From Spirochaetia bacterium (GTDB taxonomy: Bacteria; Spirochaetota; Spirochaetia; CADAEX01): a stretch of DNA of 40,171 nt. The stretch is taken from assembly GCA_017642445.1 (NCBI GenBank), contig JAGCPA010000009.1, forward strand, positions 1-40,171, in the 5' to 3' direction. Under the pieces are notes generated by a model. The model made no database searches. It was not told where the DNA came from and saw only the letters and a list, made by a program, of their open reading frames with translations. This document shows, piece after piece, positions 24,908 through 39,885 of this stretch. The position numbers and the translations under genes are program-made. The first letter of the stretch is position 1. Each line of letters starts with the position of its first letter.

Positions 24908-25909
24908 ATGAAAAAAACATTGGTTGTTCTCTTCCTTATCCTTTGTATTTTACTAGTTTCTGAGACAGCATTCGCCAAAGGAAAATCGGAAGGAGATTTC
25001 AAGGCAGTAATGGGAAGTTCCAGCTTGGGTGGAACTTGGTATTCCTGTGCTTGTAAGATCGGCGCAGTAGCAGAGCAGTATGAAGGTTTGAATATCACAG
25101 TTCAGGCTACAGGAGGTGGAGCAGAGAACATCCGCCTTATGGCTCAGAACGAGGCTCAGCTTGGACTGGCAGAGCCAAGTATCGCTTCATACGCATATAA
25201 TGCTACAAGCATTTTCGAGGGAGATCCGCACAAGGATATCCGCTTCATCACAGACTTGTATCCAAACGCACTCTGCGCTATGGTAATGAAGAGCGGCGAC
25301 ATCAAGACATTCGAGGACCTCAAGACCCCTGCAGGCGGAAAGAAGAAAGGTTTCTGCTTCGGATCACCAGGCTCCGGGGACGAGCTGGTATGGATCGAGG
25401 CTCTTTCCGGCTTCGGAATCACCAAGGATATGCTGGACTGGAGACCACTCTCACACTCCGAGCGTGTAACAGCTTTCAAGGACCGCCAGCTTGAGTGCTT
25501 GGGCTATGCAACTGCACAGCCATCAGGCTCAATCATGGAGGCATCTGCTCAGACACCTATCCGGCTGCTTGCTATCGGCGGCAAAGACCGGGAGAAGATT
25601 CTGAAAGACTATCCATGGTATGATCCGTATACAATCAAGGCTGGAATGTACAATGGCGTTGACGAGCCGGTTGAGACTATCAGTATCGGTGGCTACGTAA
25701 TCGTAAACAAAGATGTTCCAGAAGAATTTGTATACAAGATTCTCAAGGCTATGTACAGCCCAGAAGGTCTTGCTCAGGTACAGGGAGTTTCTGCAGGAAC
25801 AAAGGCTGTAAGCCTGGAGACTGCTCTTGGCGGAAACAAGGATGGAAAGATTCTTCCATTCCACCCAGGTGCTACAAAGTTCTATAAAGAAGTTGGCATG
25901 ATTAAGTGA
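24908..25909 (+). CDS. TRAP transporter solute receptor, TAXI family
   Basis: A 333-aa periplasmic binding protein. The signal peptide is residues 1-23 (ending SETAFA-KG). The mature protein begins with the TAXI pattern MGSSSLGGTWYSCACKIGAV, followed by ATGGGAENIRLMAQNEAQLG (about 62-81) and the later FGSPGSGDELVWIEALSGFG (about 158-177). TAXI receptors capture small acids, including glutamate-like and 2-oxo acids, and pass them to a fused DctQM permease; the ligand here is unknown. No permease gene is in the window, so this is an orphan or depends on a distant one. TTAGGAGG precedes the ATG. A hairpin separates it from the next gene, as is common after binding-protein genes. Confidence 0.9.
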   Translation: MKKTLVVLFLILCILLVSETAFAKGKSEGDFKAVMGSSSLGGTWYSCACKIGAVAEQYEGLNITVQATGGGAENIRLMAQNEAQLGLAEPSIASYAYNATSIFEGDPHKDIRFITDLYPNALCAMVMKSGDIKTFEDLKTPAGGKKKGFCFGSPGSGDELVWIEALSGFGITKDMLDWRPLSHSERVTAFKDRQLECLGYATAQPSGSIMEASAQTPIRLLAIGGKDREKILKDYPWYDPYTIKAGMYNGVDEPVETISIGGYVIVNKDVPEEFVYKILKAMYSPEGLAQVQGVSAGTKAVSLETALGGNKDGKILPFHPGATKFYKEVGMIK

Positions 25910-25913
25910 TAAG

Positions 25914-25939
25914 TCGCCTTATGGGAAACCATAAGGTGA
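25914..25939 (+). terminator. hairpin between receptor and dehydrogenase genes
   Basis: TCGCCTTATGG and CCATAAGGTGA pair over 11 bases (one G-U) around a GAAA loop. A weak TTTGAT follows, not a strong T run. It probably protects the receptor mRNA or partly terminates, lowering expression of the next gene. Confidence 0.6.
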
Positions 25940-25983
25940 TTTGATAAAATCTATAACGGAAGTTAATTAAGGAGGCAGAAAGA

Positions 25984-27180
25984 ATGGGAAAGAAATTATT
26001 TGTATTGGGAGCAGGTAATATTTGCGGCTGGTCTCTCAGAACTGTTTCAAAGCTTACAGATAATAGTCTTTTCGAAAAAATCACAATCGGCGACATCAAT
26101 GTGGAGGGTGCCAACAAGCTGAAGGATGAGCTTAAGGATCCGAGAATTGATGTAGTTAAAGTTGATATTGTCAATGACGAGGCTGGTGCTATTGAGAAGA
26201 TCAAAGGCTATGACCTGGTTATGGACGGCACCAAGATCAGTCTGAACGGAATCTCCACAAGAGTTATCCTCAAGGCAGGCTGTGATGGAATCAACCTGAA
26301 CGGAATCGGAGCTGAGTATCAGTACAGTGACGGTTTCAAGGAAATCGGAAAGATTATGGTTCCTGGCTTCGGAATGACCCCAGGTATGACAGACGCTATG
26401 GTACAGGCAGGATCTAAGCTGCTCGATAAGATCGACACAGTAAGAATCAGCCACTGTGCATACAGACCAATAGCTTATTCTCCATCCATCTTCGAGACAA
26501 CCTCAATGGAATATGACCCGGAGGATCCAGGAAGAATGGTATATGAGAATGGTGAATATAAACATGTTCCACCATTTGCAAGGGAAAGACTTATCCCGTC
26601 TCCTGCTCCTTATGGAGTGACTCCACAGTATATTATTCCTCATGCCGAGACCAGAACTGCAAAGCAGTGGCTCTGCAAGATCGGCAAGGAACCACGCCTT
26701 ATCGAGGTGCGCGGAACATGGCCACAGAAGAACATGCGGCTCATCAAGGCTCTCTATGAATGGGGCATCATGCAGAATGACACCTTTATCTGCGACGGCA
26801 AAGAGATGAAGATCATGGATGTTCTTGGCCAGTACCTGTATCAGAAGGAAGTTGGTCATACAACCGATTTCTACGGCTACTGCCTCTATATCCAGATGCT
26901 GGGCGAGCGGGACGGAAAGAAGTACGAGGAGGTATACTACCATACACACCCATCTTCTGACGGAAGCGTACCAGGATGGGAAGGACTCAATGCATACATC
27001 AGGAACGTAGGTACACCGATGGGTGCAGGTGCAATCCTCATTGCACAGGGCAAGAGCCATGGAACAGGCTGTGTAGTTCCAGAAGAGGCATTTGACTGCG
27101 AGGATGTATTCAGGATCTGTGAATCGACAGGCATCAAGGTACACCACACAGAAAGAGAGATTCCAGATTATAACTACTAA
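25984..27180 (+). CDS. saccharopine dehydrogenase-like NAD(P)-dependent oxidoreductase
   Basis: A 398-aa protein with an N-terminal Rossmann fold. The dinucleotide-binding motif is near the start (LFVLGAGNICGWSL, residues about 5-18; GxGxxG variant GAGNIC), followed by an acidic residue closing strand 2 (IGDIN, about 35-39). The arrangement, with DLVMDGTKISLN (about 76-87) and VPGFGMTPGMTDAM (about 121-134), matches the saccharopine/lysine/carboxynorspermidine dehydrogenase superfamily. The C-terminal half would form the substrate domain. The substrate is unknown; an amino acid or imino acid is likely. AAGGAGG precedes the ATG. It shares a transcript with the TAXI receptor and ends in a strong terminator, so it is not simply part of the eut operon. 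Confidence 0.8.
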   Translation: MGKKLFVLGAGNICGWSLRTVSKLTDNSLFEKITIGDINVEGANKLKDELKDPRIDVVKVDIVNDEAGAIEKIKGYDLVMDGTKISLNGISTRVILKAGCDGINLNGIGAEYQYSDGFKEIGKIMVPGFGMTPGMTDAMVQAGSKLLDKIDTVRISHCAYRPIAYSPSIFETTSMEYDPEDPGRMVYENGEYKHVPPFARERLIPSPAPYGVTPQYIIPHAETRTAKQWLCKIGKEPRLIEVRGTWPQKNMRLIKALYEWGIMQNDTFICDGKEMKIMDVLGQYLYQKEVGHTTDFYGYCLYIQMLGERDGKKYEEVYYHTHPSSDGSVPGWEGLNAYIRNVGTPMGAGAILIAQGKSHGTGCVVPEEAFDCEDVFRICESTGIKVHHTEREIPDYNY

Positions 27181-27202
27181 TTTTTCTCTCTAAAAAATAT
27201 CG

Positions 27203-27236
27203 GGCGGGTACAGCAAAAACTGTATCCGCCTTTTTT
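27203..27236 (+). terminator. strong terminator before the eut operon
   Basis: GGCGGGTACAG (27203-27213) pairs with CTGTATCCGCC (27220-27230) with one G-U, loop CAAAAA, then six T. It insulates eutA from the upstream pair. Confidence 0.9.
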
Positions 27237-33214: not shown

Positions 33215-33499
33215 ATGGCAAATTTACAGGCATTGGGAATGGTTGAGACAAAAGGACTTGTAGGCTCAATCGAGGCAGCAGATGCAATGGTAAAGGCTGC
33301 TAATGTACGGCTTATCGGCAAGGTACATGTAGGCGGCGGACTTGTGACTGTAATGGTACGGGGCGATGTAGGTGCGGTAAAGTCAGCTACAGATGCAGGC
33401 GCAGCAGCAGCATCCAGAGTAGGAGAGCTGGTGAGTGTGCATGTAATCCCAAGACCACATGAGGAAGTTGAGTACATTCTTCCAAAACTTGAGATGTGA
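33215..33499 (+). CDS. eutM: microcompartment hexameric shell protein EutM, copy 1
   Basis: A 94-aa BMC-H protein forming the flat hexagonal facets. The canonical [20 protein letters not shown] (7-26) and [20 protein letters not shown] (about 61-80) are present. AGGAGGAGA (33204-33212) is a strong Shine-Dalgarno, in keeping with a major shell protein. The neighbouring copy 2 differs in only two residues. Confidence 0.96.
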
Positions 33500-33551
33500 T
33501 GAAGCTATGAGTACAACAACAAAAAAAGCAAAAGAATCAAAGGAGATTAAT

Positions 33552-33836
33552 ATGGCAAATTTACATGCATTGGTAATGGTTGAGACAAAAGGACTTGTAG
33601 GCTCAATCGAGGCAGCAGATGCAATGGTAAAAGCTGCTAATGTACGGCTTATCGGCAAGGTACATGTAGGCGGCGGACTTGTGACTGTAATGGTACGGGG
33701 CGATGTAGGTGCAGTAAAGTCAGCTACAGATGCAGGCGCAGCAGCAGCATCCAGAGTAGGAGAGCTGGTGAGCGTACATGTAATCCCAAGACCACACGAA
33801 GAAGTAGAATACATTCTTCCTAAGCTTGAGATGTAA
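33552..33836 (+). CDS. eutM: microcompartment hexameric shell protein EutM, copy 2
   Basis: Second BMC-H paralogue, identical to copy 1 except His at position 5 and Val at position 8. Residue 8 is almost always Gly in the [12 protein letters not shown] motif. The start at 33552 is set by AAAGGAGA (33538-33545); an in-frame ATG at 33507 would add 15 residues ([15 protein letters not shown]) and is less likely. Having two copies may raise dose, or give hexamers with a slightly different surface. Confidence 0.95.
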
Positions 33837-38982: not shown

Positions 38983-39885
38983 ATGAATCTTTATCATCTC
39001 AAGACTTTCTACTATATAGCTAAATTCAAGAGCTATACCAGGGCCGCACAGGAACTGTGTGTCACCCAGCCGGCGGTGACCCGTCAGATCCAGGAGCTGG
39101 AGAACACCCACAATCTGGTGCTCTTCAACAAGATCGGCAAAAAGATTGTCCTTACCGATGCAGGGGAGGCCCTCTATTCCCTGGCCGAGAAGATTTTTGA
39201 CCTTGAGACCCAGGTGGAGGAGAGCATTAGGGATTTCCAGTCCCAGAACAAAGGGAGGATCGACATAGTCTCCTGCGAGACTTTTGCCGCCTACTACCTT
39301 CCATCACTTTTGGAGCTGTTCTATAAGAAGTTCCCCGACATTTTCCTGTCGGTGATGACCAAGCTGGACGGCAAGGTGATAGAGAGCACAGCCAGCCTGG
39401 ACAGCGACATAGGCTTCACATCCAGGCAGATTCCACACCCCAAGCTGACAACCAAGGAGTTCCTGACCGAGGAGCTCATCTTCATAGCAAGCCCGGAAAA
39501 CCCACTGGCAAAGAAGGGGACCATCGATATCTGGGAGCTGAACCATATCCCTGTGATCCTGCACGAGCCTGGCTGCGGAACCTGGAAGATATTCAAGGAG
39601 TTCATCCAGCGTCACCACCTGCATACCAAGGATGTGGGAGAATTCACCAACAACTCGGCTATAGTCAACCTGGTCAAGCGGAACCTGGGCTTCTCCCTCA
39701 TCTCCAAGAATGTAGTGCGCGAAGAGCTTAAGAACGGCACTCTGGCAGAGGTTACAGTGGCAGGGGAATCCTTCCACCGGCGGTATTACATCAACTACTA
39801 CAACGAAAAGTACTTCACCAAGACACTGGCCGATTTTGTGGCTATGGCCACCAGCTGGGCAGCCGATTATATGAACGAACTATAA
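38983..39885 (+). CDS. LysR-family transcriptional regulator
   Basis: A 300-aa DNA-binding regulator. The N-terminal winged HTH (about 1-60) reads NLYHLKTFYYIAKFKSYTRA then AQELCVTQPAVTRQIQELEN. A linker helix and a periplasmic-binding-like effector domain (about 90-295) follow. Its position right behind the eut operon suggests that it controls this operon, or the receptor/dehydrogenase pair, in place of EutR or EutVW; the inducer is not predictable. It has no Shine-Dalgarno, and the promoter spacing predicts leaderless mRNA. An 8-base AT-only dyad (ATAAAATA 39882-39889, TATTTTAT 39903-39910) overlaps the stop. Confidence 0.92.
   Translation: MNLYHLKTFYYIAKFKSYTRAAQELCVTQPAVTRQIQELENTHNLVLFNKIGKKIVLTDAGEALYSLAEKIFDLETQVEESIRDFQSQNKGRIDIVSCETFAAYYLPSLLELFYKKFPDIFLSVMTKLDGKVIESTASLDSDIGFTSRQIPHPKLTTKEFLTEELIFIASPENPLAKKGTIDIWELNHIPVILHEPGCGTWKIFKEFIQRHHLHTKDVGEFTNNSAIVNLVKRNLGFSLISKNVVREELKNGTLAEVTVAGESFHRRYYINYYNEKYFTKTLADFVAMATSWAADYMNEL

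Follow-up and report, generated by a model that had tools for sequence, protein, structure and literature searches.

The ancillary enzymes of 2-aminoethylphosphonate (AEP) catabolism described in the works consulted are amine oxidoreductases dependent on flavin adenine dinucleotide (FAD), a pyridoxal phosphate lyase and a pfam02826 racemase (PMC10590968, PMC12366243). The FAD enzymes PbfB, PbfC and PbfD oxidize N-methyl-AEP and are encoded in AEP gene clusters (PMC10590968), while PbfF is a hydroxy-AEP racemase dependent on nicotinamide adenine dinucleotide (NAD) and belongs to the D-hydroxyacid dehydrogenase family, pfam02826 (PMC12366243). Three AEP carriers, AepXVW, AepP and AepSTU, have been reported in a work whose main text does not use the words TRAP or TAXI (PMC8316502), and some TAXI receptors work with GltS in place of DctQM, which defines the TAXI-GltS class (PMC12344293). 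Here, we analyzed a gene pair on a contig of a rumen spirochaete (Spirochaetia bacterium, JAGCPA010000009.1). The window, that is, the whole stretch analyzed, is this entire contig (C56, 40,171 bases) of a 1.70-Mb genome in 103 contigs. The pair consists of a TAXI-family periplasmic receptor gene (24908 to 25909, forward strand) and a gene for a saccharopine-dehydrogenase-fold oxidoreductase, called SDH below (25984 to 27180, forward strand). The pair is real and conserved, it is probably misnamed, and it most likely serves aminophosphonate catabolism, standing beside eut genes in one rumen genus. A literature search that covered few subscription papers, judged mainly by titles and abstracts, found no work that places this enzyme, or any TAXI receptor, in the breakdown of phosphonates.

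Similar to PbfB, PbfC and PbfD, SDH would be an accessory amine-oxidizing enzyme, encoded repeatedly in phnWX-type clusters and supplying them with phosphonoacetaldehyde; it differs from them as a Rossmann NAD enzyme of another cofactor and fold, with a predicted activity, found here mainly in Bacillota, spirochaetes and Desulfovibrio. With PbfF it shares the use of NAD and the discovery by context in AEP clusters with PbfA, but its domains are PF03435 and PF16653 rather than pfam02826, and the identity of SDH with this NAD racemase was ruled out on that ground. The receptor shares its family with the TAXI-TRAP transporters but has no adjoining permease, whereas a related receptor on contig C57 of the same genome has one. 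In the Bordetella pertussis TAXI-GltS system, a TAXI receptor likewise lacks a TRAP membrane component beside it; the partner there is gltS (PMC12344293), and none lies beside the window pair.

On balance, we lean toward reading the pair as an uptake-and-oxidation module for an aminophosphonate, which may be AEP, hydroxy-AEP or an N-alkyl-AEP. The TAXI receptor would bind the compound in the periplasm and pass it to the DctQM permease encoded on C57 beside a PhnW-type aminotransferase; the cytoplasmic SDH would then oxidize the C-N bond with NAD+, as lysine 6-dehydrogenase does or as carboxyspermidine dehydrogenase would in reverse, and the product would be phosphonoacetaldehyde, or AEP for PhnW. 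If this is true, an SDH-fold NAD enzyme that keeps company with phn genes across Bacillota, Spirochaetota and Desulfovibrio would fill a gap in anaerobic phosphonate use and become a ready assay target, and the annotation "saccharopine dehydrogenase" would be corrected for this subfamily.

Gene neighborhoods of the SDH family

Both open reading frames (ORFs) of the pair were confirmed and lie in tandem, and the family memberships proposed in the preliminary description agree with the domain models. The receptor (333 amino acids) is a clear TAXI member, as it scored 214.2 bits with TIGR02122 (cut-off 84.35) and 234.4 bits with Pfam NMT1_3. SDH (398 amino acids) carries the saccharopine dehydrogenase NADP-binding domain (PF03435, 32.5 bits) and C-terminal domain (PF16653, 40.3 bits), each above its cut-off.

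SDH homologues were gathered from species genomes with the enzyme as sole query and with no phosphonate criterion, which gave 22 loci, six of them from the window's genus. Rows were dropped where L034 and L013 represent one genome and where L033 carries an SDH fragment only; the L023 genome stood outside the genome-level searches, and G068 (a weak partial match) outside the reading. Pfam and NCBIfam models were applied to chosen neighbors, and the rest were named by eye from their first 70 to 120 residues, as is partly the case for the racemase-like, cyclodeaminase-like, formate-lyase-like and corrinoid methyltransferase names. Where the G+C content is high, the ORF picker could choose frames on the wrong strand, as happened in L095 and is suspected for L027, and absences at such loci are weak.

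A phnW, phnX, phnX-like or pbfA gene is present in the fetched stretch of 9 of the 22 loci (L018, L022, L024, L025, L027, L028, L030, L031, L032), or 9 of 16 without the window's genus, across four phyla (assigned mostly from record titles). The Bacilli show a phnS-T-U-X-W arrangement: PhnS2, PhnU2, PhnX and PhnW exceed the curated cut-offs in L022, PhnW and PhnX in L024 and L025, PhnW and PhnS2 in L027, and PhnW, PhnX and PhnS2 in Neobacillus L031, and phnW overlaps or abuts the SDH gene in L022, L024, L025 and L027. The window SDH is 50 to 55% identical to members within such canonical phn clusters. At the Anaerovorax locus L032, a PhnX-like protein (159.4 bits, under the cut-off of 220) has a major facilitator superfamily (MFS) carrier beside it, and the PhnW-type gene, cut by the locus end, reaches 430.3 bits when whole, above its cut-off. 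The Desulfovibrio locus L028 has the order PhnX-like-MFS-SDH and is counted solely for its PhnX-like protein (141.7 bits against 220). Its carrier matched PgtP and GlpT types best, all under cut-off, and AepP, a proven AEP carrier, is taken as a member of that group (PMC8316502). The Desulfovibrio genome G400 has, besides the L028 arrangement, a second SDH copy that directly follows MFS-PhnW. No plasmid-borne SDH copy was found at E 1e-40 in the plasmid collection.

Few genomes of Spirochaetota encode SDH (7 of 392 at E 1e-30), and in one of these, a spirochaete of another family (G315), it is the last gene of a single run, phnT-U-X-W-S-SDH, in which PhnU2, PhnX, PhnW and PhnS2 exceed their cut-offs and PhnT2 falls under (415.4 against 457.7). 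Recurrence in phnWX-type clusters, as for the Pbf-type ancillary enzymes, is therefore observed for the SDH family, with phnW and phnX in L022, L024, L025, L031 and G315 and phnW and phnS2 in L027; the window itself has eut neighbors instead. The preliminary description had named a conserved association of the pair with an unrelated pathway as evidence against its proposal, and for SDH such an association exists, with AEP catabolism.

PbfA lies near SDH in L030 and L018, and the SDH genomes searched contain PbfA in 7 of 10 and PhnW-AepZ in 12 of 16 cases. The PbfA counts bear on a different role, in which SDH acts as racemase or dehydrogenase on 1-hydroxy-2-aminoethylphosphonate, an other-fold counterpart of PbfF that gives the R isomer to PbfA, and PbfF is a precedent for an NAD enzyme doing such chemistry (PMC12366243). 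However, no PbfA was seen in the Bacilli clusters and none in the G315 genome, where SDH accompanies PhnW and PhnX, and besides the pfam02826 membership of PbfF, the SDH fold is known for C-N rather than C-O oxidation. This hydroxy-AEP role thus seems improbable to us.

Fold, active-site residues and predicted chemistry of SDH

The predicted SDH structure has a mean pLDDT (predicted local distance difference test) of 82.5 with some weak stretches, and in Foldseek the model matched carboxyspermidine dehydrogenase, L-lysine dehydrogenase and saccharopine dehydrogenase. Carboxyspermidine dehydrogenase (8DEB, 8H4Z; PMC10413350) is the closest solved sequence and among the closest folds. The Bacteroides enzyme uses NADPH and has an active site of His228, Glu229, Glu230 and Glu188 (PMC10413350). 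In a profile alignment, H220 and E222 of SDH correspond to its catalytic His and outer Glu and are invariant over all 17 rows of the SDH family, whereas the middle Glu (Glu229) is replaced by Ala, Ser or Pro and the NADPH-type loop is missing. Thus, the His-Glu-Glu run of the carboxy(nor)spermidine dehydrogenases is absent (the window enzyme has H-A-E and the family as a whole H-A/S/P-E), and the carboxynorspermidine synthase model NF043000 gave only 23.6 bits against a cut-off of 800. The motif RGTWPQKN, also kept in 17 of 17 rows, places Arg and Lys where carboxyspermidine dehydrogenase has Trp and Glu. Both domains of a true saccharopine dehydrogenase are present, and the gene context points away from the lysine pathway.

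The end of strand 2 is Asp or Glu throughout the 17 rows, whereas carboxyspermidine dehydrogenase has Ser-Arg there. An acidic residue at this position is the usual mark of NAD use, so SDH is predicted to be of the NAD type, which would fit oxidation and hence catabolism. As to the reaction, the leading candidate, to be held tentatively, is the oxidation of N-methyl-AEP, in which SDH would be an oxygen-independent counterpart of the FAD enzymes PbfB, PbfC and PbfD; direct AEP dehydrogenation would come next. We favor the former because SDH accompanies PhnW in the Bacilli and in G315 and so need not replace it.

Receptor clade, permeases and phosphonate genes of the genome

The receptor tree contained 53 rows from nine genomes, drawn from 60 matches. 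G392:C5, G000:C100 (in-frame TGA) and five sequences outside 250 to 420 amino acids were left out, the latter being three GltS-fused or long ORFs, a contig-end fragment and the stop-broken SDH-side receptor of G395. A clade of 12 rows (support 99/98) contains the window receptor. Nine of its members stand next to SDH, and one of the nine adjoins PbfA as well; a further one adjoins PbfA only, and two adjoin neither. No permease was seen near the 12 receptors in the stretches read, with a contig end, beyond which one may lie, close on one side for some (G392 C18, G392 C112 and G393 C13). A six-row clade joins this one with weaker support (94/86), and all six of its members lie beside a C57-type DctQM, from which a PhnW-type gene diverges in four of the six (one cut by the contig end).

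The preliminary description had called the receptor an orphan. No DctQM adjoins the pair, and the genome contains six DctM permeases above the Pfam cut-off and five TAXI receptors, so that "orphan" means no adjacent permease and nothing more. Three permeases of the genome are related to the C57 DctQM (100%, 37% and 34%), and the only one of the close type adjoins the C57 receptor, a relative of the window receptor; that description had named a permease clearly partnered with another receptor as a second objection, and the closest-matching DctQM does stand beside another receptor. The termite-type spirochaete G297 has a single C57-type DctQM, divergent from PhnW, and over the 19 kb read (L089) no receptor lies between the two or next to them, while a receptor of the window's clade stands between SDH and PbfA (L018). 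The simplest explanation would be a split TRAP system, with the receptor gene by SDH and the membrane part by the aminotransferase, so that a permease encoded elsewhere probably serves the window receptor in trans. An aminophosphonate would agree with the earlier guess of an amino-acid-like compound that may have nothing to do with ethanolamine, and the wider distribution is not tied to ethanolamine either, but a sensor role does not follow from the missing permease, since service in trans or GltS pairing is possible.

The window's genome encodes PbfA on C75 (687.6 bits, cut-off 525) and a PhnW-AepZ aminotransferase on C57, the latter marginal by about 5 bits (TIGR03301, 365.7 against 360.8) and under the stricter PhnW model TIGR02326 (268.7 against 400.8). 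By family assignment, the parts that would convert AEP and R-hydroxy-AEP to phosphonoacetaldehyde are thus present. The C57 PhnW type is 48 to 50% identical to the types of L032, L095 and L096. PEP (phosphoenolpyruvate) mutase gave no match in this genome, which makes AEP synthesis by that route unlikely, and AEP biosynthesis was set aside as an explanation.

Several observations weigh against the assignment to aminophosphonate catabolism. The strongest concerns C-P cleavage: in a genome that is 98.7% complete, no PhnX exceeds the cut-off (best 36.9 bits against 220), the PhnX-like protein of L032 as query has no match, and neither has PhnA, the phosphonoacetate hydrolase, which was dropped as a candidate. 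No known C-P cleavage enzyme was therefore found, and the unrecognized enzyme is the main gap of the proposal. A haloacid dehalogenase (HAD) gene near PhnW on C57 was considered for the role of phosphonatase, but its product belongs to HAD-IIB and it was not seen around PhnW in G238 (L091), and we do not claim it. In addition, the C57 PhnW type is only 27 to 30% identical to the two canonical PhnW proteins compared, and G316 and G395 hold a paralogue 94 to 95% identical to it together with racemase-like and cyclodeaminase-like genes, a context that suggests another amino substrate. No phosphonate gene adjoins SDH in the window's genus, where the neighbors are eut genes. Outside the genus, the stretch read lacks any phosphonate gene at 7 of 16 loci (L019, L020, L021, L023, L026, L029, L033; several are short), among them L026, whose genome has PhnW-AepZ elsewhere. 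The genome of L020 (G394) has SDH and, at the limits used, no TAXI, PbfA, PhnW or DctQM match; PbfA was not found in G316 and G315, nor PhnW-AepZ in G149, G394, G396 and G401. Conversely, PbfA is present in G238, a genome of the window's genus, although no SDH was found there. A divergent SDH (41%) at L062:348-4922 (G047) lies beside trimethylamine-type corrinoid methyltransferase-like genes, named by eye, which hints that other SDH members act on methylated amines.

The divergence of the C57 PhnW type and the setting of its paralogue would also suit an ordinary amino-acid module, in which the receptor binds glutamate or a similar compound, SDH is an uncharacterized amino-acid dehydrogenase and the phosphonate neighbors elsewhere reflect a different specificity. 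The TAXI receptor BP0403 binds L-glutamate (PMC12344293), and the solved match of the window receptor, 1us4/1us5, is named a putative GluR0 ligand-binding core. Against such a module stand the identity of SDH to the canonical phn-cluster members and the invariance of RGTWPQKN noted above. Moreover, 10 of the 12 clade receptors have Glu where C87-type receptors have Gln, while two differ, and this exchange would suggest another ligand than that of the C87 type. Naming the ligand from these pocket letters was rejected, the exchange being a hint only. We consider the amino-acid module rather unlikely, and aminophosphonate uptake and oxidation remains the reading that we prefer.

The paralogue just mentioned belongs to another TRAP uptake cluster, found at L092:6709-15688 (G316:C12) and in L094 (G395:C116), where a LysR gene diverges from TAXI, racemase-like, DctQM, cyclodeaminase-like and second PhnW-type genes, with a serine-dehydratase-like gene adjoining. 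Other unusual receptors were also observed. In the close relative G149 (L126:271-2325, minus strand), one ORF joins a TAXI receptor domain to a sodium/glutamate symporter of the GltS type, with each model above its cut-off, and long TAXI ORFs also occur in G316 C13 and G238 C5. One TAXI match of the window's genome (G000:C100:2912-3874, L172) contains an in-frame TGA, and in a yak spirochaete genome (L013:8925-9926, G395:C57), the window-type receptor is interrupted by an in-frame TAG while SDH is intact.

Hairpin, terminator and eut neighborhood

The stable hairpin and the strong terminator that the preliminary description had placed between and after the two genes were both recovered. The intercistronic hairpin (25910 to 25943, forward strand) has a 15-bp stem, a GAAA loop and a folding energy of -21.0 kcal/mol (z -7.6 against shuffles). 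It is kept in five relatives: over the six aligned sequences, 96.4% of pair cells are still paired and two-sided changes occur at 2 of 14 pairs, a count equaled by 10 of 500 shuffles. Because it lacks a U-run, it is not a classical terminator, and perhaps it is an mRNA-stability or processing element; an ordinary explanation would be that the receptor message is kept more abundant than the SDH message. The predicted Rho-independent terminator at the boundary with eutA (27202 to 27231, forward strand) has 12 pairs and a T tail (-20.9 kcal/mol, z -7.0) and is recognizable by eye in all four relatives aligned. A pattern scan gave three terminator-like and seven promoter-like sites against 2.6 and 4.3 in shuffles, so that stem length and energy, not number, speak for the terminator. 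With a hairpin lacking a U-run between the genes and a terminator after SDH, receptor and enzyme are probably transcribed together and their transcript would stop short of eutA, and membership in the eut unit is not indicated, given the predicted conserved terminator between SDH and eutA. The G+C content is 0.48 for the receptor gene, 0.47 for SDH, 0.54 for eut and 0.50 to 0.51 for the flanks; these values are not decisive, and a recent arrival of the pair was not adopted on base composition.

Downstream of the pair, Pfam identifies EutA, EutB, EutC, an aldehyde dehydrogenase (EutE), cobalamin adenosyltransferase, a PduL-type phosphotransacylase, an RnfC-like protein, a bacterial microcompartment (BMC) shell protein and EutP, followed at the far end of the block by a LysR-type regulator gene (38983 to 39885, forward strand). 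As described before, no transporter gene or ethanolamine permease was seen in the eut locus in the ORF list or by Pfam on ten eut-locus genes. The nearest SDH loci, L013 to L017, are 98 to 100% identical and come from spirochaete metagenome-assembled genomes (MAGs) of yak omasum, sheep rumen, water buffalo and goat reticulum and from RUG13243, and the order TAXI-SDH-eutA is kept in L014 to L017 (L016 begins inside the receptor gene). In G238, neither an SDH match nor a receptor of the window's clade was found, so the two are absent together; at L098 (G238:C52), the window's genes upstream of the pair recur, but pyruvate formate-lyase-like and activase-like genes (by eye) and PbfA come after them instead of TAXI-SDH-eut.

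The window LysR is 48 to 49% identical to the LysR adjoining SDH and two TAXI genes in the termite-type spirochaete MAGs L019 and L021, its nearest kin among those compared. Together with the adjacency, this suggests co-regulation of the pair and eut in the rumen genus, the one genus in which a eut link is seen. The same two observations could be explained if the pair imports an N-substituted ethanolamine or related secondary amine, which SDH, whose fold performs C-N oxidation, would split with NAD+ to an aldehyde and ethanolamine for the eut microcompartment. However, the strong predicted terminator divides the pair from eut, and SDH homologues in four phyla accompany phosphonate genes. In the stretches read of L018, L019 and L021, SDH and TAXI genes occur but no ORF matches the window eut genes, eut elsewhere in those genomes having not been searched. 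This supply of ethanolamine by the pair therefore has, in our estimate, a low probability.

A further point comes from Neobacillus mesonae (L031:7152-15268), where genes for a BMC-shell-like protein, an EutE-like aldehyde dehydrogenase and a PduL-like protein come after those for PhnW, SDH and PhnX. The EutE-like protein is 49% and the PduL-like protein 44% identical to the window counterparts, the best shell-model matches of the shell protein are under cut-off, and no EutB or EutC match occurs in the stretch; these genes come with phnX and phnW, which also argues against the feeding of ethanolamine. A microcompartment for AEP-derived acetaldehyde is possible in L031. Ethanolamine and AEP are both lipid head groups, and their routes can both yield acetaldehyde, usable by EutE. 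L031 makes it conceivable that a microcompartment takes part in AEP breakdown, and for the window's genome this is speculation; our literature search on 2-aminoethylphosphonate and microcompartments, judged by title, returned no paper on such coupling.

Rumen ciliates are rich in AEP. A preprint lists AEP (ciliatine) among sheep rumen metabolites (PMC11839056). In its widest form, the aminophosphonate proposal would have many anaerobes use SDH as a novel NAD+ dehydrogenase that acts on N-methyl-AEP or AEP and needs no oxygen, and the TAXI clade would be the first TRAP-type route of aminophosphonate uptake; rumen and termite-gut spirochaetes would feed on phosphonolipid head groups of co-resident protists, and in the rumen genus the acetaldehyde would be handled in the neighboring eut microcompartment. 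We regard this combination as a long shot. Within the eut block, we also observed two near-identical short tandem genes at 33215 to 33836 (33215 to 33499 and within 33459 to 33836), which are shell-protein-like by translation.

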